Source: a virus. Taken from it: 64,000 nt of DNA. The notes beneath the pieces are model-generated. The model ran no database searches, was not told the origin of the DNA, and was given only the letters and a program-made list of their open reading frames with translations. The first letter of the stretch is position 1, and every line of letters starts with the position of its first letter. The stretch is from positions 46,690 to 110,689 of the IMG/VR virus record IMGVR_UViG_3300025687_000024, one strand, 5' to 3'. Both the position numbers and the translations under genes were made by a program. Shown piece after piece: positions 18,501-62,553 of this stretch.

Positions 18501-21500
18501 CCGCCCCCGAAGGTGCCCTTCGCCTACGAGAAGTTCCTCTCCTACCTGAACGCCATGCGCGTCGACGCACGGAAGCACGGGAACAGCCTGACCTTGGTCC
18601 CGTTCACCGAGGAGCAGGTGAAGTCGATGTCGGCCGGGGAGCTCAAGGATCCCGGGCTGGTGGTGCGCGGCAAGGACTTGCGTCCGCTCAAGGGCGGGCT
18701 GTTCGACGAGGACATCACGGGCGGCATGCTCGGGGACAAGTGGGCACACTTCAAGCTCGCCGAGCCCATGCCGAACCCGCTCTTCGAGGACGCGGTCAAG
18801 AAGCTCCTCAACATCACCCGCAAGCGCTACGCGGACATCGTCGCGGGACGGGTGGAGGTCAAGGGCAAGCGGGGCGGGGAGGCCATCAAGGCCCTGCTGG
18901 AGGACGTCAACGTCGCGGAGCAGCGGGAAGCCATCACTGCGAAGCTCGCGACTGCGAAGGGAGCCACGCGGAGCAAGCTGCACAAGCAGCTGCGCATCCT
19001 CAAGGCCCTGGAGGCCAACAACCTCGACCCCACGGTCTACATGATGGAGTCCGTGCCCGTCGTCCCGCCGATCATGCGCCCCGTAACGGTCAAGGACGAC
19101 GGCTCCCTCTCGTCCAACGACTTGAACTACCTCTACAAGGGCATCGCGGCCTCCAACGACGTGCTCCGGAGCAACAAGCGGGCAGGCCTGCCCGCAGCCC
19201 ACATGGAGACGGTGCGCTCCGAGCTGTACGATGGCGTCAAGGCCCTGATGGGTGTCGGCGCCGCGGCTGCGCCGGGCCCGCGCGACTACCAGGGAGTGCT
19301 CAAGATCATCTCGGGGGATCAGCCCAAGGAGGGCTACTTCCAGAAGCGCGTGATGAAGCGCCGCCAGGACTTCTCGGCCCGGTCCATCATCATCCCGGAG
19401 CCGGGCATGGACCTCGACGAGCTCGGGGTGCCCGAGAAGGTGGCCTGGTCGCTGTACCAGCCCTTCATCGAGCGCGACCTCGCCCGGGCGGGCTGGAAGA
19501 TGCTCGACGCCATCAACGAGGTCAAGGCCCGCGGTCCCGCGGCCGAGAAGGCGTTGGAGCGTGCGGTGCAGGAGCGCCCCATTCTACTGAAGCGCGACCC
19601 CGCTCTGCACATGTTCAACGTGATGGCCTTCAAGCCCAGGCTGGTGAAGGGCAGCGCCATCGAAATCCACCCCCTCGTCGTCTCGGGCTACAACGCTGAC
19701 TTCGACGGCGACGCCATGAGCGTGTACCTGCCCCTCACCTCGAAGGCGGTGAAGGAAGCGCATGGCATGTACCCGTCCAAGAACTTGTTCAGCTCGAGCA
19801 CGGGTGCCGTGATGCACACGCCCGGGCACGAAGCGTTGCTCGGCCTCTACCTGGCGTCGAAGCCCGGGAAGCGCACGCGGCACACGTTCAAGACGGGAGA
19901 AGACGCGCGGGCGGCCTGGCGTCGGGGACGTATCGACCGGACGGACATCATCCACGTGGCTGGGCACGAGACTACGGTGGGCCGGCTGGACATCGAGCGG
20001 CACCTGCCGCCGGAGCTGCGGGAGACCGGGAAGAAGCCTGTCTCCCAGATGCGGGTCTACGACAAGGGGACCACCAAGAAGGTGCTGACGGCCATCGCCA
20101 AGAAGAACCCTGACCACTACGGCAAGGTGGCCAACGCCTTCAAGGACATCGGCAACGAGCACACCTTCGACGTAGGGTTCTCCATCGGCCTCGACGACTT
20201 CGAGGTCATCAACCGGAAGGAGCGGGACTCCATGATGCAGGCGGCCGAGGCCCAGGCGGACCGCATCCGGCAGGGTCCCGGGAGCAAGCAGCGGAAGGAC
20301 GAGCGGGTCGTCAAGATCTTCCAGGACCTCGATGACTCCCTCGACCGCCTCAACACCGAGCACCTGGCCCAGAACCCCACCAACATCTCCCGCATGGTGG
20401 AGTCCGGGGCGCGCGGCAAGCCCTCGCAGCTCAAGCAGATCATCAGCAGTCCCGTGTTGGTGATGGACGCGAAGAACCGGGTGGTGCCGAGCCTCATCCC
20501 GCGGTCGTACTCCGAGGGCATGGACGTGGCGTCCTACTGGACCACGCTGCACGGTGCGCGGAAGGGCACCATCCAGAAGGTGCAGGGCGTGAAGGACCCC
20601 GGGTACATCTCCAAGCAGGTGATGAACTCCACCATGAACCAGCTCGTCACGGAGCGAGACTGCGGGACGACCGAGGGCATCTTCATGTCCGTCGATGACT
20701 CGGACATCCTGGACAGGTACACGGTGCAGGGGACGCTCATCACGCCGAAGGTGGTGGCTGATGCGCGGAAGCGCCGACAGCGCTCCCTCAAGGTGAGGTC
20801 CCCCCTGCGGTGCAAGTCGTCGCACGGCATCTGCCAGAAGTGCATGGGGCTGAGCGTGAACGGACACCACCACGATGTGGGGACCAACGTGGGGGTGCTC
20901 GCTGGGCAGGCCATCGGAGAGCCCGCGACGCAGCTCTCCCTCAACGTCTTCCACACGGGAGGCTTGGCCAAGGGGCGCGGCTCGAAGAGCGTCAACGCCT
21001 TCCACCGGCTCACCGAAATCTTGCGGCTCCCCAAGAACCTGCCGGACGCAGCGCCGCTGGCCCTGGAGTCGGGGACGGTCACCAAGGTCGAGCGCGCGCC
21101 GCAGGGCGGCGAGTACGTGACCGTCGGCCGGACGCGCCACTACCTCCCGGCGGCTCAGGCCAGGGCGGTGAAGCGCGGGCAGCCTGTGCGCAAGGGCGCT
21201 CCGCTGACGGATGGCGTGGTGGACCCGCGCAACCTGCTGTCCCTGCGGGGCCTCGAGGCTGTGCAAGACCACCTCACCGACGAGCTCGCCGACGTCATGG
21301 GTACGGTGGCTCCGGTGAAGCGACGCAACCTCGAGGTCGTCGTCAAGTCGCTCACGAACGTCACGCACATCGACGATGCGGGAGACCACCCGGAGTGGGT
21401 TCCGGGCGATGCGCAGCCCTACAGTGCCGTGCAGGCGTACAACCGGAAGCCCGGCACGAAGCCGGTCAAGCATACGCCCTACCTCAAGGGAGTCAACGTC

Positions 21501-21701
21501 CTGCCCCACGAGATGCAGGAAGACTGGATGGCGCGCCTGAACTACACCGACCTCTCGCGCACGCTGACCGAGGCGGCCCGCGAGGGCTGGCGGTCCAACA
21601 TCCACGGCTTCCATCCGGTACCCGGGGCGGCCTACGCTGCCGAGTTCGGGCAGAAGCAGAAGGCCGTCAAGCCCGGTGAGCCCTGGAGAGGTGAGTATTG
21701 A
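15591..21701 (+). CDS. Single-chain RNA polymerase, beta and beta-prime fused
   Basis: 2036 residues joining both catalytic subunits of a multisubunit RNA polymerase. Beta part (about 1-1003): H384 region GFLDPIHTPES, GNRAMTAAKQQEQAVPL (from 503), GYNFEDGIVISE (632), GRHGNKG (776), LNPLGVPGRINLGQILE (810) and GELGMYSMLAHGA (about 930). Beta-prime part: GLFDEDITGG (1036), clamp coiled coil (1177-1221), RRQDFSARS (1257), the catalytic loop NADFDGD (1368-1374), trigger loop (1654-1680) and second zinc site C1691, C1741, C1748, C1751. The first zinc domain is absent and the chain is well below the combined E. coli length. No alpha, omega or sigma gene is visible. AGGAG lies six bases before the ATG. 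Its place between portal and spike suggests late expression and possibly a virion polymerase. Confidence 0.96.
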   Translation: MPYLSPDEQFADLKSKVSSTLMELFPVEGRGGRVVLKNVEVDDNLDTHDLRSQRVALQEGKTWAVPVYGDAVLEREGQEIDRKRVLLMHLPKTTDRFGYIVKGREYQALTQFRQKSGVYHRTASNGALLAEFNLANRDQFANGRTFKVRFDPEEAVYYLQHGNSNIPLYHLLKGAGVSDRELEQRWGAAIVQKNRERASAEQVYSRFYKAVNKKQPADPMRHAGLFRELLGKTRLRADTTKKTLGAEFETVDNEVLLRATENLLDMSKGRREDDPKTSLEFQSVHTIDDFIDGRLKRAAPSIRRKLANALASGRTRNVRRVVKADPFDRAVQGYFTSDLTVNPEQTNPLEMLAGQLKTTIMGEQGGYKSAHVVSEESKLISPSHLGFLDPIHTPESDKTGVTLSLPLGVKKVGNELETLLVDARTGRTRRMQPADVLDQTVAFPDQYERKGKKLVARHAKVKATRGGEVVTVPASEVDYVLPSPRSLFGVASNLVPFLQNNQGNRAMTAAKQQEQAVPLEHREAPLVQVEMDRGGTFEQALGLYASRRAPVAGVVKTVKKDAVIINDGDKDHEVQIYRNFPLNGTSLYDMDVQVKKGDQVEKGQLLADSTFTKDGTLALGTNLRTAYIPFMGYNFEDGIVISEAAARKLASRHLYKKSTARDADTILSRKTFLAEYPYVFGKGQLSGVGEDGIVKPGTILNEGDPLIMVLRKPPMTKARKQIREFRRGRPDKYRDRSVVWDKPYQGEVTEVVRKGKDVTVYVKTREPAQIGDKVVGRHGNKGVITRIIPVSEMPWKEGENGEKEHVEIALNPLGVPGRINLGQILETAAGKVAEKRGKPYGVRNFEAEKDYLAMVKEDLAAEGLQDRDELIDPRTGKPFPNRILAGNQYIVKLKHQVGKKVSARAGGPGAPYDINHAPAGGAPHGGQALGELGMYSMLAHGARENLHEMFAYKSSRNHELWDALREGTPLPPPKVPFAYEKFLSYLNAMRVDARKHGNSLTLVPFTEEQVKSMSAGELKDPGLVVRGKDLRPLKGGLFDEDITGGMLGDKWAHFKLAEPMPNPLFEDAVKKLLNITRKRYADIVAGRVEVKGKRGGEAIKALLEDVNVAEQREAITAKLATAKGATRSKLHKQLRILKALEANNLDPTVYMMESVPVVPPIMRPVTVKDDGSLSSNDLNYLYKGIAASNDVLRSNKRAGLPAAHMETVRSELYDGVKALMGVGAAAAPGPRDYQGVLKIISGDQPKEGYFQKRVMKRRQDFSARSIIIPEPGMDLDELGVPEKVAWSLYQPFIERDLARAGWKMLDAINEVKARGPAAEKALERAVQERPILLKRDPALHMFNVMAFKPRLVKGSAIEIHPLVVSGYNADFDGDAMSVYLPLTSKAVKEAHGMYPSKNLFSSSTGAVMHTPGHEALLGLYLASKPGKRTRHTFKTGEDARAAWRRGRIDRTDIIHVAGHETTVGRLDIERHLPPELRETGKKPVSQMRVYDKGTTKKVLTAIAKKNPDHYGKVANAFKDIGNEHTFDVGFSIGLDDFEVINRKERDSMMQAAEAQADRIRQGPGSKQRKDERVVKIFQDLDDSLDRLNTEHLAQNPTNISRMVESGARGKPSQLKQIISSPVLVMDAKNRVVPSLIPRSYSEGMDVASYWTTLHGARKGTIQKVQGVKDPGYISKQVMNSTMNQLVTERDCGTTEGIFMSVDDSDILDRYTVQGTLITPKVVADARKRRQRSLKVRSPLRCKSSHGICQKCMGLSVNGHHHDVGTNVGVLAGQAIGEPATQLSLNVFHTGGLAKGRGSKSVNAFHRLTEILRLPKNLPDAAPLALESGTVTKVERAPQGGEYVTVGRTRHYLPAAQARAVKRGQPVRKGAPLTDGVVDPRNLLSLRGLEAVQDHLTDELADVMGTVAPVKRRNLEVVVKSLTNVTHIDDAGDHPEWVPGDAQPYSAVQAYNRKPGTKPVKHTPYLKGVNVLPHEMQEDWMARLNYTDLSRTLTEAAREGWRSNIHGFHPVPGAAYAAEFGQKQKAVKPGEPWRGEY

Positions 21702-34453: not shown

Positions 34454-36139
34454 ATGTCCGACTTCCCAGGCATCCCCAAGACGCTTCCCGTCACCGTCGG
34501 CGGCTCCGATCCGCTGGGGCGGTGCTTCGCCGAGGCGGTCGACGTCACGCGCGCGGGCGGTGGGGGCCTGGAGAAGATCGCCGGCGTGCGCGAGCTGCAT
34601 CCCGAGATCGACGCCTACCTGAAGCAGCTGCGGCCGGATCCGGCCTACCAGTTCGTGCTCATGACCCCGCTGGGGGCCTACGAGTACTGGGGGATGAACG
34701 TCAACGGGGACATCTTCCCCGAGATCGCGCTGGCGCACGACCACCTCAAGCAGAACCCCCGAGACGTCATCAGGCGCCTCGAGGCACGCTGGGTGACCCC
34801 GCACGGGCGACGCCTCCCCCCGGGCAACTACCACGAGTTCGGGCACAAGACGTTCCTGAACGCCAAGCGCTACCTGCACCACGTCAACAAGAACCCCGAG
34901 ATCGCCTACGGGGACATCGTGGTGGCGGTCTACAACCCCGCGATGCACCGCGTGGAGGTCATCGTCCGGCACGACCGGGAGATGGCCAAGAAGGTGGGGG
35001 CGCAGGATGTCATCGACGACATCGACGAGCGCAAGCCTCGCCAGATCTCGATGGGGTGCAAGGTTCCCTTCGACGTCTGCACCAAGTGCGGCTCCATCTC
35101 GAAGACCACGCGCGACTACTGCGAGTGCCTGCTCACGCAGCGGGCACAGATCCTGCCTGACGGGCGGATCGTCGGCATGGTCAACCTCTTCCCCCGCTTC
35201 TTCGACCTCTCGGACGTCTTCGTTCCGGCAGCGAAGGAGTCCGGGGTACTGCTCAAGGTGGCCTCGGCGGCAGGGACCCGCTTCTTCGTGCCGCACTCCT
35301 ACTTCGAGCGCATTGGTACGCGGCCGCCAGCGGACGCCATCGAGGTGACGCGCGAAGGCGTGCTGGTCAAGGTGGCGCACGACAAGCAGGCCGAAGCTGC
35401 CAAGAGCGCCGAAGTGACCAAGGAGATCCTCCCCAACGCTGGCCCGAATGTGGAGCGCCTGACTGCGCGCGAACCCGACATTCCAACCGGCCTGTTGGGG
35501 GGCGACTTCGAGCAGCTCGTCAACACGCTGGCGCTGCTGGGGATCGTGCTCAAGCCACACGAGTTCCAGCACGGAGCGCTCACAGGCGCGGGCCTGGGTG
35601 ACCTGGCGTCCCAGCTGAGCGCGAAGCGCCAGGTGTTCACGCCGGCTACCTCCGAGAGTGCGCTTCGCCTGAGCTGCGAGAGCTACAGTCCGAACCTCGC
35701 GCGCCTGTTGGCGTCCTTGCTGGCGTCCCGGTCTGCCTTCCATCCGCACCTTCCCGCGCGCTCGTTGCAGCTCGTCGTGGTGAAGTCTCCCAAGCTCCCG
35801 CCCAAGCGAGAGCAGGTCGAGAACACGCCACCTCTGCAGAAGGTTGCGGAGGCCTACGACGCCTACAGGAAGGCACTTGTCTACCTTCCAGGCCTGCTAC
35901 CGCAGGCTATCGACAACGACCCGGCCTTCTACCGGGAGCACTATCTGGGAGAACTCTTCGAGAACTCCTGGGAGAAGCTCGCGTCGGGGAGTACCGAGAA
36001 GGGGTTGTCTCCGCCCCCCGTATCGGTATACCTTACGGCTGCGCACCGTGATCGCGGTGGTGTTCCTTCTTCGTGGGATCGGGTACTACCTCCACACACA
36101 GCCGCACGGGCACTGCTCGGAATCGAGGATCTCTCATGA
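34454..36139 (+). CDS. Prohead protease, gp21-like
   Basis: 561 residues. The N-terminal third fits the phage prohead protease family: GMNVNGDIFPE, then LHHVNKNPEIAYG with H142/H143 and QISMGCKVPFD with S199, the expected His and Ser. A zinc-like group, CTKC with DYCEC, follows the serine as in several large-phage homologues. The C-terminal 300 residues are an extension carrying further KxA motifs (LLKVASA, LVKVAHD, LQKVAEAY, WEKLASG) and GLEKIAG occurs at 39-43. It should cleave capsid and internal proteins during head maturation; the EKxA sites in it suggest it also cuts itself. Confidence 0.85.
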   Translation: MSDFPGIPKTLPVTVGGSDPLGRCFAEAVDVTRAGGGGLEKIAGVRELHPEIDAYLKQLRPDPAYQFVLMTPLGAYEYWGMNVNGDIFPEIALAHDHLKQNPRDVIRRLEARWVTPHGRRLPPGNYHEFGHKTFLNAKRYLHHVNKNPEIAYGDIVVAVYNPAMHRVEVIVRHDREMAKKVGAQDVIDDIDERKPRQISMGCKVPFDVCTKCGSISKTTRDYCECLLTQRAQILPDGRIVGMVNLFPRFFDLSDVFVPAAKESGVLLKVASAAGTRFFVPHSYFERIGTRPPADAIEVTREGVLVKVAHDKQAEAAKSAEVTKEILPNAGPNVERLTAREPDIPTGLLGGDFEQLVNTLALLGIVLKPHEFQHGALTGAGLGDLASQLSAKRQVFTPATSESALRLSCESYSPNLARLLASLLASRSAFHPHLPARSLQLVVVKSPKLPPKREQVENTPPLQKVAEAYDAYRKALVYLPGLLPQAIDNDPAFYREHYLGELFENSWEKLASGSTEKGLSPPPVSVYLTAAHRDRGGVPSSWDRVLPPHTAARALLGIEDLS

Positions 36140-38536: not shown

Positions 38537-39565
38537 ATGAGCACCGACGCTGCCACCCTGAACCAGCTCTTCCTGGCCCATCTGGAGCACCCCGAGGGCA
38601 AGGAGAAGCTCGCGGCCGTGGGCCGTACCTACGTGCGTGACAAGCTGCGCGAGAACAGCTTCGCCCGCAAGATCCTCCCGCCCCAGATGGTCACCAAGGC
38701 CGACATGCAGGTGTCCGTGAACCACGACACCCTCGTCTACATCGACGAGATCGAGCCCAACTCCAGGGCCATGTCGCTGACCTTCCGCGGCCAGCCCACC
38801 GCGCGCTACATCCGCGCCTCCCGCTACGAGATCCCCATCTTCACCATCTCGAGCGAGCGCTTCGAGAAGACGGAGCAGGAGCTCCTCGCCTACCGGATGC
38901 CCATCACCCGGGTGATCGAGGACAACTCGGTCAAGGACATCCAGGAGATCGAGGACTACCGCTTCCTGGTCTACGTCGATGCGGCCATCTCCAACACCGA
39001 GCAGATCGTCAAGGGCACCCAGGCCCAGGACGATATCGAGGCCAACGGGCTGAACTCCGGCTTCCGCGGCACCCTCGAGCGCGCCGACCTGGTCCTGCTG
39101 TTCAAGGAGCTCGACTCCCGTCGTCGCCGCCTGGCCACGGTGCTGATGAACGAGGAGAACTGGGACGATGTCCTGAACTGGACCATCGAGGACTTCGGCG
39201 ACAAGCAGGCCTCGGTGACCGTCGACGGCTACACCTACGACCGCCTGATGGGTCGGAAGATCATCCGTACCATCAAGACGGACATCCTCCAGACCGGCAA
39301 CATCTACGGCTTCTGCGCGCCCGAGTGGCTCGGCAAGTTCCTCATCCTGAACGCCACCAAGTTCTACATCGACAAGGTGTACAACCTGGTCATGTGGCAG
39401 GCCTGGGAGGACATCGGCATGGGCATCGGCAACATCGCCAGCATGGCCAAGCTCGAGCTCTACAACGACACCACCGACGTCCTGATCTCCGAGGATGAGG
39501 TCGGCACCACGGTCTACAACGAGGCCGACGATGGTCTGACCTTCCCGCAGGTCAGCCACTACTAG
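38537..39565 (+). CDS. Major capsid protein
   Basis: 342 residues, AGGAG upstream. The sequence has the alternating pattern and length of an HK97-fold capsid protein: a charged N-terminal arm, an E-loop-like region (IEPNSRAMSLTFRGQPTARY), a spine helix (ELLAYRMPITRVIEDNSVKD) and P-domain segments (TLERADLVLLFKELDSRRRR). GKEKLAAVG at 21-29 matches the EKxA motif, so the first 26 or so residues may be cut off by the prohead protease. Preceded by scaffold, protease and decoration candidates in the usual head-gene order. Confidence 0.82.
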   Translation: MSTDAATLNQLFLAHLEHPEGKEKLAAVGRTYVRDKLRENSFARKILPPQMVTKADMQVSVNHDTLVYIDEIEPNSRAMSLTFRGQPTARYIRASRYEIPIFTISSERFEKTEQELLAYRMPITRVIEDNSVKDIQEIEDYRFLVYVDAAISNTEQIVKGTQAQDDIEANGLNSGFRGTLERADLVLLFKELDSRRRRLATVLMNEENWDDVLNWTIEDFGDKQASVTVDGYTYDRLMGRKIIRTIKTDILQTGNIYGFCAPEWLGKFLILNATKFYIDKVYNLVMWQAWEDIGMGIGNIASMAKLELYNDTTDVLISEDEVGTTVYNEADDGLTFPQVSHY

Positions 39566-40813: not shown

Positions 40814-41746
40814 ATGGCCATCCACGACGTCCTCGCCCGCATCTACGGCCTCGACAAGACCGCCTCCGAGCAGGAGACGGAGCTCGACCTCGACAACATG
40901 AGCGCCGTCGACTTCCTCGCCGGCATCGAGAGCGGCGAGATCGTCTACGTCGACGGTGACGAGCCCGAGGCCGAGAAGACCGCCGGCGACGAGGGAGAGC
41001 TCGACCTCGACAACATGAGCGCGACCCAGCTCCTGCAGGGGCTCGAGAGCGGCGAGATCGTGTTCGACGACGGCAGCGATCCCGAGGCCGAGAAGACCGC
41101 GGGCTTCGACCTCGACAGCCTCACCCAGGAGCAGCTCGAGAGCATGTCGGCCGAGGAGCTCATCGAGCTGGCCAACTCGCTCGACGAGGATCCCGGGGAG
41201 CAGGAGAAGGTCGCCGCCGAGCAGCAGTACTGGCTCGACGCCGGGGCCCTGATGGCGCGCGGCTACGCCTCCGAGCTGGAGAAGCTGTCCTCCGAGCAGA
41301 TGCCCGACGAGCTCGAGATCGACATGAGCAAGATCACCGGCGCCGATCTCGTGGAGCTCATGGAGCACTACGAGTTCGTCGAGGACGACGAGCCCCAGGT
41401 GGAGAAGACCGCCGGCGGGCTGGGCAGCCTCCTGAAGTTCAAGGGCGCCCGGAAGGCCTTCAAGGGCTCCCGGAAGGCCGGCGAGACGGCCGAGGAGGCC
41501 CTGAAGGCGCGCAAGAGCGCCGCCAAGGACGCCGCCAAGGCGGCGGGCAAGGGCGACGACAAGGCCGTCGTCGATGCCTTCAAGCGCGGCCGCGACGCCC
41601 ACAAGGCCGGCAAGGCCGCCAAGAAGGAAGCCCGCAAGCTGCGCCGCAAGGGCTACAAGAAGGCCGGGCAGAGCGCCGCGGTCTACGGCGGTGGCCTGGC
41701 CGCCGCTGGCGGACTCGCCGCGGGCACCAAGGCCGCGCTGGACTAG
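40814..41746 (+). CDS. Acidic-repeat precursor with basic C-terminal domain
   Basis: 310 residues, CGGAG before the ATG. Three acidic repeats (ELDLDNMSAVDFLAGIESGE, ELDLDNMSATQLLQGLESGE, ELEIDMSKITGADLVELMEH) each end in EKTAG; an additional LDKTAS is at 13-18 and QEKVAAE lies between repeats. After the last EKTAG, at about 204, comes a 100-residue Lys/Arg/Ala-rich domain (RKAFKGSRKAGETAEEALKA). The reading is a precursor in which acidic segments mask a DNA-binding domain until cleavage at EKTA. Not seen in families I know. Confidence 0.75.
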   Translation: MAIHDVLARIYGLDKTASEQETELDLDNMSAVDFLAGIESGEIVYVDGDEPEAEKTAGDEGELDLDNMSATQLLQGLESGEIVFDDGSDPEAEKTAGFDLDSLTQEQLESMSAEELIELANSLDEDPGEQEKVAAEQQYWLDAGALMARGYASELEKLSSEQMPDELEIDMSKITGADLVELMEHYEFVEDDEPQVEKTAGGLGSLLKFKGARKAFKGSRKAGETAEEALKARKSAAKDAAKAAGKGDDKAVVDAFKRGRDAHKAGKAAKKEARKLRRKGYKKAGQSAAVYGGGLAAAGGLAAGTKAALD

Positions 41747-42851: not shown

Positions 42852-43442
42852 ATGAGCCACTCCTTGCCCCCCGAGCTCGCCCGCGGGTTCTTCTCCGAGC
42901 TGGAGAAGGTTGCCATCCTCCTCGGTGCCGGCACCGGAGCGGTCGCTGCCGGTCAAGGGAACCGGGGCGAGGGTGCGCTGTACGGAGGTGCCGGAGGCAT
43001 CTTGGGCGCCATGGCTGGCGCGACCCCGGGCGCTCTCGCTCAGATGGCGCGCGACACTCCCAAGAAGGCACGCCGTGGGCGAGGGAAGATCTCGGCCCTG
43101 ACCGCTCTCGGCGTCCTCACTGGAGAGGCTCTGGGCGGCGTCGCCGGCGGGCGCCTGGCCAAGAAGCACGCCCAGGAGCGCCGGGCAAAGCACCGGGAAG
43201 CCACCAAGAAGGCCGTGCGCGAAGCCCTCGCCGAGCAGAAGGAGAAGAAGGGCTCGGTCGAGAAGGTCGCTATCTCCGTCGCCGGTCCGGCGCAGCCGGG
43301 GGGCGCTGCGTTCGTGTTCCAGCTGGCCCGGAGTTCCCAGCGAGAGACCCAGCGCAACCTGCTGCGCCGCACCGGCAAGAAGGCGGTCAAGCTGCGCAAG
43401 AAGATCCCGGCTCCCCAGCAGGTGCCCGCCGCCGCCAAGTAG
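42852..43442 (+). CDS. Glycine-zipper protein with ELEKVA leader
   Basis: 196 residues. FFSELEKVAILL at 13-24 precedes a long glycine-zipper region (LLGAGTGAVAAGQ, YGGAGGILGAMAGATPGAL), typical of proteins that insert in membranes. A second motif, SVEKVAIS, lies at about 137. The C-terminal part is very basic. A packaged, ejected, membrane-active protein is the favoured reading. Confidence 0.7.
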   Translation: MSHSLPPELARGFFSELEKVAILLGAGTGAVAAGQGNRGEGALYGGAGGILGAMAGATPGALAQMARDTPKKARRGRGKISALTALGVLTGEALGGVAGGRLAKKHAQERRAKHREATKKAVREALAEQKEKKGSVEKVAISVAGPAQPGGAAFVFQLARSSQRETQRNLLRRTGKKAVKLRKKIPAPQQVPAAAK

Positions 43443-43449
43443 GTGACCC

Positions 43450-43938
43450 ATGCTCTCTGCGCCGCTACAGGATGCCTTCATCGCCGAGCTGGAGAAGATC
43501 GCCTTCCTCAAGACCCTCCGGCGGGCCAAGCCCAAGACGCCGCCGAAGCGCGTACGTCGCTTCCGGGTGAAGGCCAACTCCGGGCACCAGCCCGGGGTCG
43601 TGCGCAACGGCTACCTCGAGGCACCGCCCTCCCAAGCGGAGACCAACCGCATCGCTCGGCAGTTCCTCAAGGACCTCGAGAAGCGGTCCTTCGCCAAGGT
43701 GGTCACGAAGAACACCACCCGCGTGGCCCGTAGTGGTTGGGAGAAGGCAGTGCGCCCCAATCCGTCCGGGATGATCAACCAGACACGCGCCTGGACCATC
43801 CGCCCGCGTGGAGCCCCCGCCGCATCCCAGCGCGCCACCTCCAAGCCCACCAAGCTGAAGGGGTGGGTGCGTCGCAGCACCAAGGAAGAGGTCCGTGCGG
43901 GGCCGCGCCCCGCGCTGGCGCGGGGCGCAGTCAGCTGA
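43450..43938 (+). CDS. Very basic protein with ELEKIA leader
   Basis: 162 residues. FIAELEKIAFL at 10-20, then a strongly cationic, Pro-containing chain (RAKPKTPPKRVRRFRVKANS) with no hydrophobic core. It resembles phage internal DNA-binding proteins in composition. Ends just before the 303-residue gene. Confidence 0.7.
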   Translation: MLSAPLQDAFIAELEKIAFLKTLRRAKPKTPPKRVRRFRVKANSGHQPGVVRNGYLEAPPSQAETNRIARQFLKDLEKRSFAKVVTKNTTRVARSGWEKAVRPNPSGMINQTRAWTIRPRGAPAASQRATSKPTKLKGWVRRSTKEEVRAGPRPALARGAVS

Positions 43939-43957: not shown

Positions 43958-44869
43958 ATGCTCGTTCCCGTCAACATCCGGGTCTGGACCCTCTCCCGCG
44001 ACTCCCTGACCATCTCCTGGGCGTTCCGCAACACCACGGCAGCGCTGGGCGACTACAGCATCACGGTGCTGCGGTCTGGTTCCGCTGCGGGAGGGTACGA
44101 GGAGATCTCGAGCGCCTTCGCGGCAGACGCGACCGTGGAGTTCGTGGACTCCGAGGTAGTCCTGCACTCCAAGTGGCGGGAGTATTTCTACCGGCTGCGG
44201 GTCACGGCGCCCGATGGCTCGACCACGGACTTCGGCTCGGTGGACTACAAGAGGGTCCTGGCTGGAGACGACGCCGGCGGCGTCGTGCTGGAGAGCTTGC
44301 CCGACCTGGTGGCCCTCGAGGCCATCCGGCGTTTCGACATGCTCCTGCAGACCAAGATCGGGCGGGAGCTCCTGGTGCTCAACCACAGGTCCACTGGGCA
44401 GCGCTGTGCCGAGTGTTGGGACAACTTGAAGAGGCGACGTACCAAGAGCAAGTGCCTGACCTGCTACGGCGTGGGGGTCTCCGGGGGGTACTACTTCCCC
44501 AAGCAGGCCTGGGCCGCCAAGGTACCCCACCGGGCATCCGTACAGCTCACCCCGCTGTTCGAGATGCAGAACAACGACGCGCTCCTGTGGATGTCGTCGC
44601 GTCCACGGGTGGTCCCGCGTGACCTGGTCATCGATGCTGATGGGCGGCGCTGGCGCGTCATCGACATTCAGCGGCACGAGAAGCTGTGGGCTCTCACCCG
44701 ACAGACCGTGCAGGTGCGCGAGCTGTCCAAGGACCAGGTGGAGTACGACATCCCGATCTCGGCTGACGAGTGGGACATCGACCCGGTGGCGGCCACGCCC
44801 TACAGGCAGTACATCAATGCTACGAACCTCGACAGTCACCGTCGAGCGAAGCGGGAGCTTGGCCTATGA
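43958..44869 (+). CDS. Neck or tail-completion candidate with zinc pair
   Basis: 303 residues. The N-terminal 100 residues read as an Fn3/Ig-like beta sandwich (VWTLSRDSLTISWAFRNTTA). Two CxxC pairs, CAEC and CLTC, lie near residues 149-170. The C-terminal third is beta-rich. It is flanked by leader-bearing small genes and followed by the tail sheath region, so a head-tail joining role is plausible. No leader motif is present, as in other structural components here. Confidence 0.65.
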   Translation: MLVPVNIRVWTLSRDSLTISWAFRNTTAALGDYSITVLRSGSAAGGYEEISSAFAADATVEFVDSEVVLHSKWREYFYRLRVTAPDGSTTDFGSVDYKRVLAGDDAGGVVLESLPDLVALEAIRRFDMLLQTKIGRELLVLNHRSTGQRCAECWDNLKRRRTKSKCLTCYGVGVSGGYYFPKQAWAAKVPHRASVQLTPLFEMQNNDALLWMSSRPRVVPRDLVIDADGRRWRVIDIQRHEKLWALTRQTVQVRELSKDQVEYDIPISADEWDIDPVAATPYRQYINATNLDSHRRAKRELGL

Positions 44870-45417
44870 TCATGCCCACCCTCTCCGTCGCAACCGTCCG
44901 CGCCTTCCAAGGCGAGCTGGTCAAGATCGCGAAGGTGACCCCAGCTACCGTGGCCCTCGGGGCGCTCGCGGGAGGCAGCGCTGGGGCACTGGCGCACAAG
45001 CACTACACCAAGGACGAGCGGTCGAAGGACGAACTGCTGCGGGACCTGAAGCGCATGCCCGAGAAGACCTACCAGGCTCGGCGCAAGGAGCGGGGTGCGC
45101 GCACGGCAGGCGCGGCGGCGCTCGGCGCCATGACGGGCGCGGGGGCTCCCGTGCTCTACAGGGAGGCGGCCCGAGCTGTTGGGCGCGCAGTGGACCGCAC
45201 GGTCAAGCCCACGCTGCAGACGGCCAAGAGCGGGATCGACGACTCCGTTGAGAAGGGCGTCGCCGAGTACGACCGCATGCTGCAGCGCCAGGCCGACTAC
45301 CTGCTCGACCAGCTCCGCGGTCCGCGGGGGGCACGCGCCGCCGAGACCCTCGGGGAGAGTGCGCGCAAGGGCTTCCTGCCCAGGTTCCTCCGCCGGCGGA
45401 GGGCCAACCCGCAGTGA
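44866..45417 (+). CDS. Internal-head candidate with ELVKIA leader
   Basis: 183 residues (ATG 44866, or 44872). FQGELVKIAKV at 14-24, a short glycine-zipper (VALGALAGGSAGALAH) and a basic helical body with a second Gly/Ala segment (GAAALGAMTGAGAP). Same architecture as its neighbours. GGGAG is nine bases upstream. Confidence 0.68.
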   Translation: MIMPTLSVATVRAFQGELVKIAKVTPATVALGALAGGSAGALAHKHYTKDERSKDELLRDLKRMPEKTYQARRKERGARTAGAAALGAMTGAGAPVLYREAARAVGRAVDRTVKPTLQTAKSGIDDSVEKGVAEYDRMLQRQADYLLDQLRGPRGARAAETLGESARKGFLPRFLRRRRANPQ

Positions 45418-49400: not shown

Positions 49401-49560
49401 CCAGGGCCTGGGCCGCTACCTGGTCGAGGCGGGGGTGCTCTCCACCTTCTCCATCTCCAGCATCGGCGTGGACCCGGATGCCTCCGACACCGTGAACGTC
49501 ACCGTCGTCATCTCGGTGCCCTACCCCTGCAACTACATCGCCATCGAGCTCCAGGTCTGA
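46498..49560 (+). CDS. Tail sheath protein
   Basis: 1020 residues, about one and a half to two times usual sheath length. The C-terminal 130 residues are the conserved sheath core: RHQLTTDVASIERREWSIRT, TAMFFQQSLARQVGVNNITQ and ETAGGALKCRH. The N-terminal segment (SITRPGIQVSTTETTSSPTI) is also sheath-like. The centre contains long Asp/Gly/Thr-rich beta domains, with related blocks at EAGDVVRLAYMGVTYDIVIE and EAGDIVIVAALADSA. These are probably surface domains inserted into the core. It defines the phage as a myovirus. Confidence 0.9.
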   Translation: MSITRPGIQVSTTETTSSPTIVQPTLRACLIGPCFRLIDAFDDEGALDSDAYAGTYRDGYGTIAYDLPSFGAEDDLTGFDDEVRVFLVNSDDSYTELNSSSDEETLEAGTGDYTQASGVFEDGAALFESEGVEAGDVVRLAYMGVTYDIVIESVDGETLLTIDNTGVPENLSNVAYTVVRNPAQFAYQSSAQQSYVLLGEEGDYLSIQTQPLGDYAGSTGDGLSLTLQETSAYTSGADLAYGDCVFYDSDADKSFETAVDLEDTNYLFIGAGPGTTLTAITAVYDDNTLIVATGEGADQTGLSYVVGKQTDSGDNGATAGGDETAFSAAGQNFLTSIPQVGGAGTAPLADTFLYISGVGVYQITEVTSDEALVIAAGAGAGLSGKDFETVEVIQADTTGCFFDDDELLSPSDDFSDVPAEVTDYDVVVGGVGYTIASIAAGKVTVDAALPGDGGAAQSYGVYITDADLLVQWDATAETLTVTLARADGLSVGTLDSLYDALTNDEAEGYDADVAEVFTAAEEVGSGDLTDYLGTYTFDGGADADQLLLDADLMGSTVPTGRVYVSYKALRLDVTPAAEEPQLLSYESTTESVAALGAANAENPLSLAFYKALQNATGKSVAGIGVDDVSAARPMGTAEAYDAAFSFLEGESVYFLVPLTQDVVVQQALQVHVEAMSEPENKAFRCCLINQVLPEYSSATLVSSGTDLNTEADFATTGTMTASVDFVAAGVEAGDIVIVAALADSASSPDVAYGTQGPLYGFVVEEVGPDDDNFTLTLDVADHAALAALWASQVDVSFSIYRSGSAISTASAQATALAEIGPNFDSARVVLVWPDEVLASIDSTEQAIEGFYLAAAVAGKKSRLPPQRGLTNSTVAGFTGLRHSSGYFSSSQLDEIAGGGTMIFMQETAGGALKCRHQLTTDVASIERREWSIRTTIDYTAMFFQQSLARQVGVNNITQSYLDSLATQIQGLGRYLVEAGVLSTFSISSIGVDPDASDTVNVTVVISVPYPCNYIAIELQV

Positions 49561-50408
49561 TGTACGCCTTCCTCGGCTTTCGCAGCGAACTGAACAAGAT
49601 CGCTGCCTCGGACAACCCAGACGTCACGCGAATGCTCGCGGCGGCGCTGGACTCCCAGGATCGAGCCGAGCGTCTCGAAGGCTTGCTGGACGCCTCCAAG
49701 AAGTCCGCCTACCCCAAGGCCATTGCCGCCGGGGCGCTGGCGGGCTTCGGGATGCCCTTCCTCTACGGCGTCCTGCCGACTCTCCAGGGACGCAAGGCGC
49801 TGGAGGAGGCGGTACAGCAGCGTGTCAACGAGAAGTACCTGACCGCGGCCGTCGAGGACATCCTCGGGCTGTCCGGCAAGGATGCCCGCGGGACCGCCCA
49901 GTCCATCATGGGCTTCATGAAGTCCAAGCCAGCCGCTTGGACTTCGGCTGGCGAGGAGGCGTTGAAGTCGCTGCGGCTGGCCCGAGGCACCCAACCCGCC
50001 CAAGGCGCCTTTGCTCTGATGGGGCAGGGCGGGACTCCCATCGTCGGGCAGATGGGCTTCCGCACCTCGGGCGAAGGCCTGGCGCAGACCCTGCGCCAGG
50101 CTGGGATGGGAGGGGACGTCGCGCGGCGCTACGTCATGGAGTCCTCCCCCTCGGTGGTCCACGCCTTCCCCGAAGGGATGGAGTGGCGCAACATCATCGA
50201 GGACTCGCGTGAGGTCTACAAGCGCAAGCACGGCAAGTTGCCGAAGTCCGGTGCCCGTCTGAAGATCCTGAGCAAGATCCTGGCCGAGAAGAGCGTGGGC
50301 GCGGCGCGCAGCGCGCTTCCCTTTGCTCTCTTGGGCGGCGGACTCGCCGCGCTTCGGGTACGTTCGAAGCGCCAGCAAGCCGAAGACCTCCGACGGAGAA
50401 TCGGATGA
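49560..50408 (+). CDS. Internal-head candidate with ELNKIA leader
   Basis: 282 residues. FRSELNKIAAS at 7-17 follows a short N-terminus. A hydrophobic Gly/Ala segment (AIAAGALAGFGMPFLYGVLP) and a helical basic body follow; a second hydrophobic segment (SALPFALLGGGLAALRV) ends the chain. It lies between the sheath and tube genes, an unusual place. Start overlaps the sheath stop by one base. Confidence 0.68.
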   Translation: MYAFLGFRSELNKIAASDNPDVTRMLAAALDSQDRAERLEGLLDASKKSAYPKAIAAGALAGFGMPFLYGVLPTLQGRKALEEAVQQRVNEKYLTAAVEDILGLSGKDARGTAQSIMGFMKSKPAAWTSAGEEALKSLRLARGTQPAQGAFALMGQGGTPIVGQMGFRTSGEGLAQTLRQAGMGGDVARRYVMESSPSVVHAFPEGMEWRNIIEDSREVYKRKHGKLPKSGARLKILSKILAEKSVGAARSALPFALLGGGLAALRVRSKRQQAEDLRRRIG

Positions 50409-51451
50409 GCACCTCCATGACCGATCGTGAAGCCCTGATCCGCTTCCTGCAGCTCCCTGCCTCACAGCGGCAGGAGGTGGCGCAGTCCGTGCGCAAGGCC
50501 GGGAAGGCTGGCAGGGTCGCAGGCGGCGCTGCGGGCTTCACCGCGGGTGCCGTGGCCACCAGCCCGCTCATCCGAGCCATCGCCAAGGTGAAGAACCCCG
50601 TCACGCAGACCCTGCTGCTCTCCGCCACGGTGGGAGCGGGGCACGTGGCCCCCACCATGGCAGGCGCCCGACTCGGCAAGCGAGTGGCCGAGAAGCGCCA
50701 CTTCAAGGGGAAGCTGAAGCGCCTGCAGGCGCCGGCTCTCATGCAGTCGGGGTACCCCCTGCAGAAGGCAGCCCAGGACAGCCGGGAGGACATCGTACTC
50801 CGCGGCCGAACGATGGCGCATGCCTTCTACGACGAGATCGAGAAGTTGGCGGAAGCCGCCGTGCGCCGTGAGCGCTTGATGCCCAAGGAGTCTCCCGTGC
50901 AGGGTGTCCTGGGTGCCGATGTGGAGCAGGAAGACGACAAGAACGCGCGCGCGGTCCCTGTGCTGGACCCGCCGCCTGGCTACGTGTTCTCCCCCGAGCT
51001 CGGAGCCTTCACGCCCGACCCCGCCAACCCTGGCTGGATGACGCCTGAGCAGGCCGAAGAGGCCCGCAAGCACAAGCTCTACTACGATGAGGGCTACCAG
51101 GCGGCCGCGCAGAACCAGGAAGAGGTGGCCCAGATGGAGCAGCAGGGCGCCCAGATGTCACCGCAGCCCGGGATGCCGGGTACGCCTGGCGACATCGCGG
51201 GCTCTGGTCAGGGGCCTGCAGCGATGCAGCCCGGTGCCGATCCTGCTGCCGGTCAGGCCGCAGCCGCGGGCCAGCCCGCACAACCCGGGGGCCAGGCGGC
51301 AGCGCCTGCTCCCGGCACGGAGGCGGCAGCGCAAGCTGCGGGACAGCCCACGCCTCCCCCTGCCCCGGAGGCTGAGCAGCCGGCCTCTTCCCCGTCGCCC
51401 AAGAACAAGAAGCCTTCGTCCCGGGACATCACCATCAAGGTGAGCCGGTAG
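50405..51451 (+). CDS. Possible two-part protein with internal FYDEIEKLA motif
   Basis: 348 residues. The N-terminal 135 have a glycine zipper (VAGGAAGFTAGAVATSPLIR) and a basic helix. At about residue 138 MAHAFYDEIEKLAEA begins, exactly like the N-terminus of the other leader proteins. The C-terminal half is Pro/Ala/Gln-rich and disordered. It looks like a fusion of two leader-type genes, or one frame with an internal start; no clear ribosome binding site precedes the internal ATG. Confidence 0.65.
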   Translation: MSTSMTDREALIRFLQLPASQRQEVAQSVRKAGKAGRVAGGAAGFTAGAVATSPLIRAIAKVKNPVTQTLLLSATVGAGHVAPTMAGARLGKRVAEKRHFKGKLKRLQAPALMQSGYPLQKAAQDSREDIVLRGRTMAHAFYDEIEKLAEAAVRRERLMPKESPVQGVLGADVEQEDDKNARAVPVLDPPPGYVFSPELGAFTPDPANPGWMTPEQAEEARKHKLYYDEGYQAAAQNQEEVAQMEQQGAQMSPQPGMPGTPGDIAGSGQGPAAMQPGADPAAGQAAAAGQPAQPGGQAAAPAPGTEAAAQAAGQPTPPPAPEAEQPASSPSPKNKKPSSRDITIKVSR

Positions 51452-51463
51452 AGGAGACCCCCC

Positions 51464-52219
51464 ATGGCCACGATGTCCGACTGGAACTTCTTCAACCGCA
51501 ACGTACAGAGCGGCATGCTCGAGGGGCGGTTCATGAATGCGGCCTTCACGCTGGTGGCCGCGGGGCCGCCACGGCTCGCCGCAGCCGGCGTGGACGTGGA
51601 GAGCGGCGAGCTCACGGAGCTGGGCAACATCGCCTACCCCATCGGCGTGCTGCAGAGCATCAACCTGGGCCAGAACTCCAACATCGTCCGGCTGTGGGAG
51701 ATCGGCTCCATGCGGAGCTACTTCGCCCGCGGGCGGACCATGGGTCAGGTCGGGCTCGGCCGCATCATGTACCACGGCCCCTCCCTGCTGCGCGTGATGT
51801 ACGCCTACCTGGGCGGGCGGCTCGACACGGGCGAGGAGTTCCTCGCGCTGTACGAGAACTCGGCCAAGGCCAAGCTCAACACCAGCGGTGAGGAGGGAGG
51901 CAAGCAGGTCTACCGGCTCCCGCCGGGCTACGAGAACCTGTGGCTGGACCTGGCCTCCGACGTCTTCGACCAGCCCATCGGCCTGCTGGTCTACATGCGC
52001 GACTCCAACGAGGACACCATCGGCGCGTTCTACCTGGAGTACTGCATGATCGCCAACCACGGGTGGATGGCGGACGCCTCCGGCACCATCATGTCCGAGA
52101 ACGTCGGCGTGATGTACGAGCGCATCATCCCCATCGACATCCGTGCCGTGGAGCTCATCCGGTCCAGCGAGGACGTGGAGAGCATCGTGGGCGCGAACGT
52201 GATCGGCAGCGCGGCCTAG
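51464..52219 (+). CDS. Tail tube protein
   Basis: 251 residues, GGAG upstream. Beta-rich sequence of tube-protein length (LQSINLGQNSNIVRLWEIGS, FYLEYCMIANHGWMADASGT), with the Gly-rich RTMGQVGLGRIMYHGP. It is the first structural gene downstream of the sheath without a leader motif, the usual order being sheath then tube. The assignment is from position, size and beta content. Confidence 0.7.
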   Translation: MATMSDWNFFNRNVQSGMLEGRFMNAAFTLVAAGPPRLAAAGVDVESGELTELGNIAYPIGVLQSINLGQNSNIVRLWEIGSMRSYFARGRTMGQVGLGRIMYHGPSLLRVMYAYLGGRLDTGEEFLALYENSAKAKLNTSGEEGGKQVYRLPPGYENLWLDLASDVFDQPIGLLVYMRDSNEDTIGAFYLEYCMIANHGWMADASGTIMSENVGVMYERIIPIDIRAVELIRSSEDVESIVGANVIGSAA

Positions 52220-53313
52220 GCTACGCGAGGTACCGCGGGAGCCGCTCCGGCAGCGCCCGGGGCAGCGGGCTGAGGGATGCGCCGGTGGCGGAAGTTCCCG
52301 GCGGCGGGCTGCAGCTCTGCACGCATGGCGGGGTTCTGCGGGCGGTCCTCCAGGTGACGCTTGAGGGCCACCGCGCCCGTCAGGCCCGCAAGGGCTCCGC
52401 CTCCGATCATGGCCGGAACGCCGGCGAGGTGCTTCAGTCGGAAGTACCTGTAGGCCGAGGGGGCCCGCGGGACCTTCCCCGTGGCCGCGGTGATGGCTGC
52501 CTTCTCACGCGACATCGCCTTGGACTTGGCCTCGCCCACGGCGTGCTCGGCCTGGCGGAACACGCCCTGGCGGTCGAAGCCCCGCTGTGGGGCGAAACGA
52601 GCCTCGACGCCCGTGTCCACCTTGAGCTTGTCCCCGCCCAACCCGTCGAAGGCCGACCGGATGCTCTTGGACATCCGGTCGTAGTCGTAGACGTCCATCT
52701 GCCAGGCGCCGCGCTTCCGCCGCTCGAGCTGCTTCCGGATCTGGGCGGTGGGCTTCTCCAGCCGGATGGCCACATCGAAGTGACCCGGGTTGGCCTTGGT
52801 GAAGATGTGGCTCTGGTCCATGACGATGCCCTTGCGGCCCTTCAGCCCAGCGCTCTCGATGTACTTCTCGACCTGGCGCCCCTTGGTGAGGTGCTTGCCA
52901 GCCGCGTCCAGGTCGCGATGCTCCAGGCCGAGCTGCCTGGCGAGCTCGCGCGCCAGCGTGGTCTTGCCCGTGCCTCCCGTGGCGCCGATTGCGATGTTGA
53001 TCTTCTTCGGATCCAGGCCTCGGCGTCGAATCTCCTTGGCGATGGCCTTGGCCTGCGCGATGACCTGGGGAGGGGTGCCCCGCTTGGCCGCTTCCTGGGC
53101 CTCTATCGCCCGGGCGCCTCCCTTGCCGATGCTGGCGAGGTGGGCGCCGAGCTCGATGCGCAAGCCCTTGTACCTGCCCAGCACCCCGGCGGTACCCGCG
53201 GCCGTTCCGGCAGCCGCGCCGCCGGCTCCGGCCATCACGTCACCCTCGTCCACACGGGGAGCAGCGATCTTCTCGAGCTCGTCACAGAAGGCGTAGTAGG
53301 TCGTGCCGGACAT
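52216..53313 (-). CDS. P-loop kinase with ELEKIA leader
   Basis: 365 residues. FCDELEKIAAP at 9-19 is the virion-block leader. A Gly/Ala stretch (MAGAGGAAAGTAAGTAGVLG) follows, then a kinase-like domain with Walker A IGATGGTGKTT (about 109-119), the acidic VMDQSH region and a basic lid-like ERRKRGAW. A second glycine-rich span (VPAMIGGGALAGLTGAVAL) lies near the C-terminus. The substrate is unknown. It is the only leader-bearing gene on the minus strand, convergent with the tube gene with four shared bases. A virion-packaged, injected enzyme is inferred. Confidence 0.78.
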   Translation of the reverse strand: MSGTTYYAFCDELEKIAAPRVDEGDVMAGAGGAAAGTAAGTAGVLGRYKGLRIELGAHLASIGKGGARAIEAQEAAKRGTPPQVIAQAKAIAKEIRRRGLDPKKINIAIGATGGTGKTTLARELARQLGLEHRDLDAAGKHLTKGRQVEKYIESAGLKGRKGIVMDQSHIFTKANPGHFDVAIRLEKPTAQIRKQLERRKRGAWQMDVYDYDRMSKSIRSAFDGLGGDKLKVDTGVEARFAPQRGFDRQGVFRQAEHAVGEAKSKAMSREKAAITAATGKVPRAPSAYRYFRLKHLAGVPAMIGGGALAGLTGAVALKRHLEDRPQNPAMRAELQPAAGNFRHRRIPQPAAPGAAGAAPAVPRVA

Positions 53314-53330: not shown

Positions 53331-53349
53331 CCTATCATAGCGAAAAGGG
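53331..53349 (-). promoter_or_regulatory. Promoter-like element of the kinase gene
   Basis: Minus strand CTTTTCGCTATGATAGGAG, 17 bases upstream of the kinase ATG. It matches the leftward element with one extra base between TTTCGC and the -10-like part. A second, weaker copy (TTTCGGGGATAAG) lies about 100 bases further upstream at 53432-53444. Confidence 0.45.
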
Positions 53350-53358
53350 AGATGGGCC

Positions 53359-53396
53359 GCTCCGCGCCCCCTCGACCATGCGAGGAGGCGCGGAGC
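53359..53396. terminator. GC-rich hairpin upstream of kinase promoter
   Basis: GCTCCGCGCCCCCTCG and CGAGGAGGCGCGGAGC pair over 16 bp with one mismatch, loop ACCATG. It lies between the stop of the leftward zinc gene and the kinase promoter-like element, matching the hairpin-then-promoter order seen at 57.4, 58.5 and 59.0 kb. Confidence 0.55.
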
Positions 53397-53457
53397 AGCG
53401 GGTGGAGGCAGTGTTCTCCCGACTCAAGAGGCTTATCCCCGAAACCCGGGGCTGATT

Positions 53458-54096
53458 CTACAGCTCGAAGCCCTTCAAGAAGTCGTCGATCTCATCGTCC
53501 TCGAGGCCGAGCTCGTCCTCGGCCGGCGTGGCGACCTTCTCCTTGCCCTTCGGCTTGTCCACCTGGCACTCTCCCAGCCCCAGCGGGTCGCAGTCAGCGT
53601 GCTCGCAGTCGCGGCAGAGGTCCTCGTTGTAGTCCGAGGCGGTCAGGTCGTGCACGGTCGAATCGGCCGGACCCATGGGGCGGGCGCAGCAGGCGCAGGG
53701 CTTCAGGTCTTCCTCGAGGTCACCTCGGCTGGGCTTGGGGGTGCCGCGGGGGCGCTTGGTCTTCTTGGGGGCCAGGATGACCGGGTGGATGCTGCGCCAC
53801 AGCCTGGGGAGTTCCGGGGCAGGGTGCATCGTCCAGGCGCCCAGGTGGTCGCCCAAGGCGATGAGGATCTTGGCGTACAGTCCGTTGTTGCTCGTGTGGG
53901 CGCGCACCTGGCGCCAGCTCAGCCCCTGATCCGCTCCGGGCAGGCCGGCGCAGAAGGCCAGGATCTCACCCTTGCGCTGCTCGACAGCCTCTCGGTCGAG
54001 CTCGACGGCGTCTGTGACCTCGGGACCGTACCGCAGGCGCAGGCAGGGGGCACGGTCACCGGCGAGCAGCTCGCCTACGCTGAACGTGCGAGCCAT
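53458..54096 (-). CDS. Zinc-knuckle hypothetical protein
   Basis: 212 residues. The centre is basic (KKTKRPRGTPKPSRG). It is followed by a cysteine cluster (CACC, then CRDCEHADC) that could bind one or two zincs, and an acidic C-terminus (DELGLEDDEIDDFLKGFEL). Directly downstream of the nucleotidyltransferase gene with no gap. Not recognised; nucleic acid binding is likely. Confidence 0.7.
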   Translation of the reverse strand: MARTFSVGELLAGDRAPCLRLRYGPEVTDAVELDREAVEQRKGEILAFCAGLPGADQGLSWRQVRAHTSNNGLYAKILIALGDHLGAWTMHPAPELPRLWRSIHPVILAPKKTKRPRGTPKPSRGDLEEDLKPCACCARPMGPADSTVHDLTASDYNEDLCRDCEHADCDPLGLGECQVDKPKGKEKVATPAEDELGLEDDEIDDFLKGFEL

Positions 54097-56767: not shown

Positions 56768-57189
56768 CAGAACCTCGTGGACGGGCGCCTGGAGTCGGGC
56801 CACCCGTCGAACAGCTCGACGATGCGCATGCCAGCGGACTGAGGATACTCGCGAAACTCGGGGTCCTCGAGGGTGCCGTCCGCCTGGCGCGCGGCCCACT
56901 CTTGCTGCATCAGCTTGTCGTTCGCCCAGTTGGGGAAGCCCTGCGCGTAGTCGATGGCGAACCCGAGCATCGCGTCGGTGACGCGGCCGCGACGGAGTGC
57001 CAGGTCCGTGTGCCCCAGGGCATCCAGACGCTCCGAGAGGACGTACAGGTGGTCGCCGGCGTCCGTGGAGTCCTTCGTCTGCACGAGCATCGAAGCCACG
57101 CGGCGTACCTCCTCGGCTGTCGGGGAGGTCTCGAAGTCGTCATGGGCGATGGCGAACGCCTTGAGCGACGTATGCTGGGTCAGTTCCAT
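56767..57189 (-). CDS. Hypothetical protein
   Basis: 140 residues, helical (EEVRRVASMLVQTKDSTDAG, FAIDYAQGFPNWANDKLMQQ). One-base overlap with the next gene. Not recognised. Confidence 0.68.
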   Translation of the reverse strand: MELTQHTSLKAFAIAHDDFETSPTAEEVRRVASMLVQTKDSTDAGDHLYVLSERLDALGHTDLALRRGRVTDAMLGFAIDYAQGFPNWANDKLMQQEWAARQADGTLEDPEFREYPQSAGMRIVELFDGWPDSRRPSTRF

Positions 57190-57418: not shown

Positions 57419-57434
57419 CCTTATGCGCGAAAGA
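57419..57434 (-). promoter_or_regulatory. Promoter-like element
   Basis: Minus strand TCTTTCGCGCATAAGG, the clearest copy of the leftward motif, 39 bases upstream of the 66-residue gene's ATG and just after a terminator-like hairpin. Confidence 0.65.
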
Positions 57435-62138: not shown

Positions 62139-62344
62139 GGCGTTCTCGTCTCGATGAAGTAGCGACCCTCGTCGTGCTGCAGGCCGACCGTGTCGCCTGG
62201 CTTCGCCGGAGGGGGGCCGATGTGGATCTCGCCGGCGCGCAGCTTCGCGACCACGTCGTCGTAGCTGAAGCCGTAGGCTCGGTAGTAGGCGGCCGCGGCG
62301 TCGAGGCTGCGGAAGTGGCTGGTGCCTGTGCGGACGCGGCTCAT
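62135..62344 (-). CDS. Small hypothetical protein
   Basis: 69 residues, GGAGG upstream. A short helix (AAAAYYRAYGFSYDDVVAKL) resembles tiny KTSC- or HTH-like phage proteins, but not clearly. Four-base overlaps with both neighbours. Confidence 0.65.
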   Translation of the reverse strand: MSRVRTGTSHFRSLDAAAAYYRAYGFSYDDVVAKLRAGEIHIGPPPAKPGDTVGLQHDEGRYFIETRTP

Positions 62345-62553
62345 GGGCGCCTCCGGGGGATGCCCAGCTGGCATGCGAGGCACTCGATCGGTTCCTCGAT
62401 ACGATGGGGGCGATCCTTCTCGATGCGGTAGTAGGTGACGGGGTAGGAGCGCGCTTCGACAACGACTGCGACGTTGCTCACCCTGGGCAGCTCGTCGCTG
62501 AAGCGGCGGCGGATGCGCTGCACGTTCGGCTCGCTGCACTTCAGCTTCGCCAC
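62341..62553 (-). CDS. Small hypothetical protein
   Basis: 70 residues from GTG 62553. Basic N-terminus (CSEPNVQRIRRRFSDELPRV) and a CLAC pair near the end. Not recognised. Confidence 0.63.
   Translation of the reverse strand: MAKLKCSEPNVQRIRRRFSDELPRVSNVAVVVEARSYPVTYYRIEKDRPHRIEEPIECLACQLGIPRRRP

Follow-up and report, generated by a model that had tools for sequence, protein, structure and literature searches.

An orphan P-loop gene on the non-structural strand of an uncultivated phage encodes a family-wide N-terminal leader that points to packaging in the virion

The window, which is the entire 64 kb stretch of DNA analyzed here, comprises the last part of a virus record of 110,689 bp that contains 119 genes. 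An open reading frame on its minus strand (52216–53313) begins with an ATG start codon preceded by the Shine-Dalgarno sequence GGAGG, and encodes a 365-aa protein with an N-terminal leader and a P-loop domain. The gene is present in a single copy in the record. Codon usage supports the minus strand as the coding strand and resembles that of neighboring genes, as does the GC3 value of 0.877; a long antisense ORF lies opposite the gene. Directly 3′ of the gene, with a 4-bp overlap, is a conserved gene that probably encodes the tail tube protein (51464–52219, +); its homologues follow the sheath gene in eight relatives. The neighboring gene at 49560–50408 (+), identified in our leader profile survey, encodes a protein with the leader FRSELNKIA and glycine-rich spans.

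The leader of the 52216–53313 product is YYAFCDELEKIAAP, in which residues 9–17 (53263–53289, −) constitute the core FCDELEKIA. N-termini were scored with a nine-column profile that was trained on 45 leaders, all of which came from other viruses. The core scored 23.9 bits, the second-highest value among the 119 genes of the record, in which true leaders scored at least 14.3 bits. None of 96,000 shuffled leftward N-termini attained 23 bits. The first-pass annotation had reported the leader as DELEKIAAP, and had also stated that no other leftward gene carries it. We confirmed the presence of the leader and found that the second statement is true of the whole record, as the other leftward candidates, FSDELPRVS (62341–62553) and WEAEIYKIA (3258–4448), scored only 10.4 bits each. 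The 3258–4448 gene was rejected as a leader gene; its look-alike sequence is absent from its homologues. Hence 52216–53313 is the sole clear leader gene off the capsid strand. Its leader is close to the consensus rather than decayed, and is a genuine, family-wide tag.

A P-loop NTPase domain of kinase-like type extends from about residue 103 to 236 (52606–53007, −). When searched alone, the domain scored just above the Pfam cut-offs for SKI (22.9 bits, cut-off 22.1) and AAA (21.5 bits, cut-off 21.2), and weak PDB matches to cytidylate and shikimate kinase were obtained. The Walker A motif GATGGTGKTT (residues 110–119; 52957–52986, −), which conforms to GxxGxGK[ST], and the helix that follows it were recognized by several P-loop models, such that the P-loop claimed by the first-pass annotation is real. 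Its further claim that the protein is a kinase is only probable. The Pfam, NCBIfam and PDB matches were to P-loop kinases (shikimate, cytidylate and AAA_18), limited to about residues 106–150, whereas a DxD motif, a Walker-B-like strand (GIVMDQSHIF, residues 162–171; 52801–52830, −) without HMM support and a lid-like segment (RKQLERRKRG) were identified by eye. The P-loop with its following helix, the DxD motif, the Walker-B-like Asp and the lid-like arginines resemble those of shikimate, cytidylate and AAA_18-like small-molecule kinases. Unlike in those enzymes, the matches cover the P-loop region only, the domain has glycine-rich flanks and there is no family assignment. Zeta-toxin was absent among the Pfam matches of the domain up to an E value of 0.1, and PADLOC matches were to the P-loop only. 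The protein contains one recognizable domain; no second enzymatic or effector domain was identified with Pfam, PHROGs, NCBIfam or PADLOC.

The glycine-rich spans that had been described on both sides of the domain were also present. Span 1 (GAGGAAAGTAAGTAG, residues 27–46; 53176–53235, −) is rich in glycine and alanine, as judged from sequence, hydropathy and glycine-zipper count. Span 2 (VPAMIGGGALAGLTGAVAL, residues 296–317; 52363–52428, −) is a transmembrane-like glycine zipper with a Kyte-Doolittle value of 1.63 over 19 residues.

The 52216–53313 gene is an orphan without a detectable homologue. Full-length and domain queries identified no homologue in viral contigs, and none was identified in bacterial genomes or INPHARED phages, or in 47 records of relatives, many of which are fragments. 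The searches returned only similarity in the leader region (G030, residues 5–130) and one chance match. AlphaFold models of the full-length protein and of the domain were unusable because they were made without an alignment (mean pLDDT of 43 and 38, respectively).

A search with the major capsid protein drew in a large uncultivated family in which the long records are about 185–193 kb. Its distant relatives with public genomes are Salmonella phage Arash and three Vibrio phages. Among 2,054 non-redundant genes from the survey loci, the strict pattern F..EL.K[ILVM][AS] occurred 31 times at the N-terminus and never internally. All 54 loose N-terminal leaders in these loci, as well as all clear leaders in seven further records, were encoded on the capsid strand; one opposite-strand match to the pattern, at residue 38 in two near-identical records, appeared to be due to chance. 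The leader proteins are mutually unrelated: no column of their alignment was invariant, and only one glycine and the tag's F, E and K came close. In the relatives, leader genes are small accessory genes set amid conserved structural genes. Most of them have no homologue in relatives, whereas their structural neighbors do. Glycine-zipper patterns were found in 48% of the leader proteins compared with 18% of the other capsid-strand genes (p = 4e-6). The survey also identified a head-to-tail block of leader genes in the window (42852–43442, 43450–43938 and 44866–45417, all +), in which the intervening gene at 43958–44869 lacks a leader. In the 50405–51451 product (+), a full leader (MAHAFYDEIEKLA) is internal (residues 141–149), as if two leader proteins had been fused or an internal start were used. 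The literature that was searched contained no description of this tag or of such an N-terminal packaging motif in phages, and no publication on phage Arash.

The EKxA portion of the tag was also found in proteins of the head. The gene at 34454–36139 (+) encodes a candidate head-maturation protease that contains GGLEKIAG. Five of the nine members of its family matched phrog_18299 (head maturation protease; best E value 2.1e-6), and HH.NK and S-M are invariant in the family; a PDB profile search with the family returned nothing relevant. A gene at position 141237 of one relative (G035) encodes a homologue of the head-maturation protease with an intein-like insert directly after the conserved HH motif. 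The major capsid protein (38537–39565, +; phrog_2522) has KEKLA in its N-arm, where relatives have KEKIA, and the alignment showed EKxA in the N-arm of those relatives that have a complete N-terminus. In the acidic, scaffold-like protein encoded at 40814–41746 (+), EKxA/EKLS recurs six times; the C-terminus is basic, and the whole resembles a scaffold that is cut at many sites. In phage Arash, the core [LMIVF]xK[QEVASTIL]A[SAGEH] was about 3-fold denser in proteins labeled structural (34 per 22,420 aa) than in the rest (15 per 30,716 aa), the label being the depositors' own and given without a basis in the record. One Arash protein so labeled, gp96c, is encoded on the leftward strand (L089:5250–5927, −) and has a stretch, HHGTS...GL, that on visual inspection is reminiscent of ADP-ribosyltransferases; the protein had no Pfam or NCBIfam match.

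The distribution of the leader is reminiscent of phage T4, whose internal proteins are highly diverse and have only a conserved capsid-targeting sequence (CTS) in common (PMC3012670). The CTS of the T4 internal proteins and of Alt consists of 10–20 N-terminal residues that are removed by gp21 (PMC7411985). In both cases a short N-terminal tag is present on otherwise unrelated proteins, the core of the tag recurs in head precursors and a protease homologue, and that homologue is encoded in the head block. Enzyme-bearing cargo, which is a predicted feature here, is a further similarity. The tag itself differs from that of T4 (F-x-D-E-L-x-K-I-A), and cleavage and ejection are predictions here. 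Because the leader and EKxA pattern matches that of the T4 capsid-targeting sequence, packaging into the head is favored. Our inference is that it serves as a signal for capsid targeting and perhaps also for processing.

The first-pass annotation had proposed that the 52216–53313 product may be an enzyme delivered with the DNA that could modify host targets ahead of phage gene expression, as T4 Alt does by ADP-ribosylation. The packaging part of this proposal is favored by a genuine tag otherwise found on structural-block proteins, by the CTS-like use of that tag and by the enzyme domains of other leader proteins; the position off the capsid strand, the promoter element of the non-structural strand and the orphan status count against it. 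On balance, we consider it fairly probable that the leader makes this protein virion cargo. Delivery with the DNA is the best-supported reading of the gene, with the chance of injection itself falling slightly short of even. The proposed Alt-like modification of host proteins did not hold up as the likeliest activity, since the shikimate, cytidylate and AAA_18-like class of P-loop proteins usually phosphorylates small molecules or nucleotides; such a substrate is therefore likelier than a host protein for the predicted kinase. Whereas Alt is an ADP-ribosyltransferase, the candidate cargo combines a P-loop with membrane-like segments, and Pfam, PHROGs and NCBIfam revealed no homology to Alt or the T4 internal proteins.

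In the mechanism that we propose, the gene is an accessory one that encodes cargo, located where the structural block ends and served by a promoter region of its own. The amphipathic N-terminal leader, F-x-D-E-L-E-K-I-A, would act as the T4 capsid-targeting sequence does, binding the prohead core alongside many other proteins that have only the tag in common. The head-maturation protease might then cut the leader at or near EKIA, a step that we judge evenly balanced between occurring and not. Upon exit from the head with the DNA, the protein would become anchored in or inserted into the inner membrane of the host through its two glycine-rich segments. The ATP-using domain would thereby reach the cell as infection begins, with a small molecule or nucleotide as its most likely substrate; catalysis on a host-side substrate is a more tentative prediction than injection.

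The region upstream of the gene has features of a separate transcription unit. A promoter-like element, TTTCGGGGATAAG, is located 131 bp upstream of the gene (53432–53444, −) and occurs nowhere else in the record. This form of the element was also found in five relatives (G013, G015, G019, G022 and G031), where it was associated with non-structural-strand genes only. The pattern TTTCGG[GA]GATAAG occurred 11 times in 23 records, each time on the non-structural strand and in 10 cases in an intergenic region, mostly 17–51 bp ahead of a start codon. The related element TTTCGCNCATAAGG precedes several other leftward genes (window positions 57432, 58476, 59038, 11195 and 15565, all −), and comparison with it by eye suggested a possible second element beside the start codon, TTTTCGCTATGATAGG (53331–53346, −), which is degenerate and weak. 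Between the promoter-like element and the gene, folding of the region predicted a perfect 19-bp hairpin (53356–53399, −; z = −3.6). This hairpin has no U-tract, and similar hairpins precede the promoter elements of the genes at 57180 and 58716. Scans for sigma-70 promoters and intrinsic terminators at the gene found none. As for the transcription apparatus, a single 2,036-aa protein encoded in the window (15591–21701, +) combines domains of the beta (Rpb2_6) and beta-prime (Rpb1) subunits of RNA polymerase, and a gene for a sigma-factor-like protein of 241 aa is present at L002:13219–13944.

The junction lacks the kinase gene in one relative (G005), in which the homologue of 53458–54096 directly adjoins the probable tube gene. 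Because it is off-strand, has its own promoter element and hairpin, and is absent at the junction in G005, the gene appears to be an inserted, separately transcribed accessory gene. Its partners in the leftward block include a nucleotidyltransferase-like gene, with genes for a primase, a DnaB-like helicase and a UDG further off. Since their content includes primase, helicase and UDG, we take the leftward genes to be early. This arrangement suggests that the kinase gene is expressed together with replication-type genes. As the sole off-strand leader gene, and one that lies behind a leftward promoter element, it may in addition provide an early enzyme that is expressed in the ordinary way.

These features raise the alternative that the protein is only an early P-loop kinase made in the cell, with a role in nucleotide or nucleic-acid metabolism or in counter-defense, and that it gained its leader by recombination with a neighboring structural gene. 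The leader would then tie the protein to assembling heads or membranes, with packaging being a side effect or absent. The strand, the non-structural promoter element, the block partners and an insertion junction that adjoins leader genes are all consistent with this explanation. However, the leader is not decayed, and the two glycine-rich segments fit the architecture of the other leader proteins; soluble metabolic kinases are not known to have such segments. We consider this explanation unlikely. A structural or assembly ATPase, brought to the prohead or tail by its leader so that ATP binding would aid assembly with no effector being injected, is far less likely still. Although the gene adjoins the sheath and tube genes and the domain alone exceeded the Pfam AAA cut-off, its absence at the G005 junction and from the records of relatives that were searched, fragments included, argues against a general assembly factor, and the lid-like RxxxxRRKR and the DxD are kinase-like. 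The orphan status and the antisense ORF might suggest that the leader arose by chance or that there is no gene here at all, but this is exceedingly improbable given the shuffling result, the start site, and codon usage and GC3 values like those of its neighbors.

In a more far-reaching reading, this phage family would use one capsid-targeting tag to fill its heads with a rapidly changing set of proteins. In the present phage the set would include a membrane-anchored P-loop kinase, both made early from its own promoter and delivered with the DNA, with a nucleotide or metabolite as its target from the very beginning of infection; this complete scenario is possible but rather doubtful. Should the tag be a packaging signal, sequence alone would suffice to mark any tagged gene as head cargo, and candidates for ejection, enzymes among them, could be listed for testing across a whole, mostly uncultivated phage family. 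The kinase would then be a clear example of small-molecule kinases that are injected, which so far have been mostly predicted.

Head proteins of phage SPN3US have N-terminal propeptides that were proposed to function in prohead targeting, and in this respect its ejection proteins resemble the leader proteins; unlike the leader described here, these propeptides exceed 100 residues and have another cleavage motif (PMC7411985). InPase domains and zeta-like kinases were predicted in phage polyvalent proteins judged likely to be packaged, and zeta-toxin-like kinases are fused to phage MuF domains (PMC5512222). As with those effectors, the 52216–53313 gene encodes an enzyme near late genes that is predicted to be packaged. 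Unlike the polyvalent proteins, its product has only one catalytic domain and matched neither zeta-toxin nor MuF, and the gene lies on the opposite strand. The polyvalent InPase domain is present in a leader protein of one relative (G013, L120:14693–16273, −), a tagged 526-aa protein that also contains DUF5661 and a C92 papain-like amidase domain. A gene in another relative (G022) encodes a similar N-terminal sequence. Because of this InPase-bearing leader protein and the MuF-fused kinases, a packaged P-loop kinase is not without predicted parallels. The clearest second leader-tagged enzyme predicted for the phage studied here is encoded to the left of the window in the same record (L002:9317–11152). 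This 611-aa protein contains glycine-rich segments and a zinc-peptidase motif, AHELGH (HExxH), and gave weak metallopeptidase matches.
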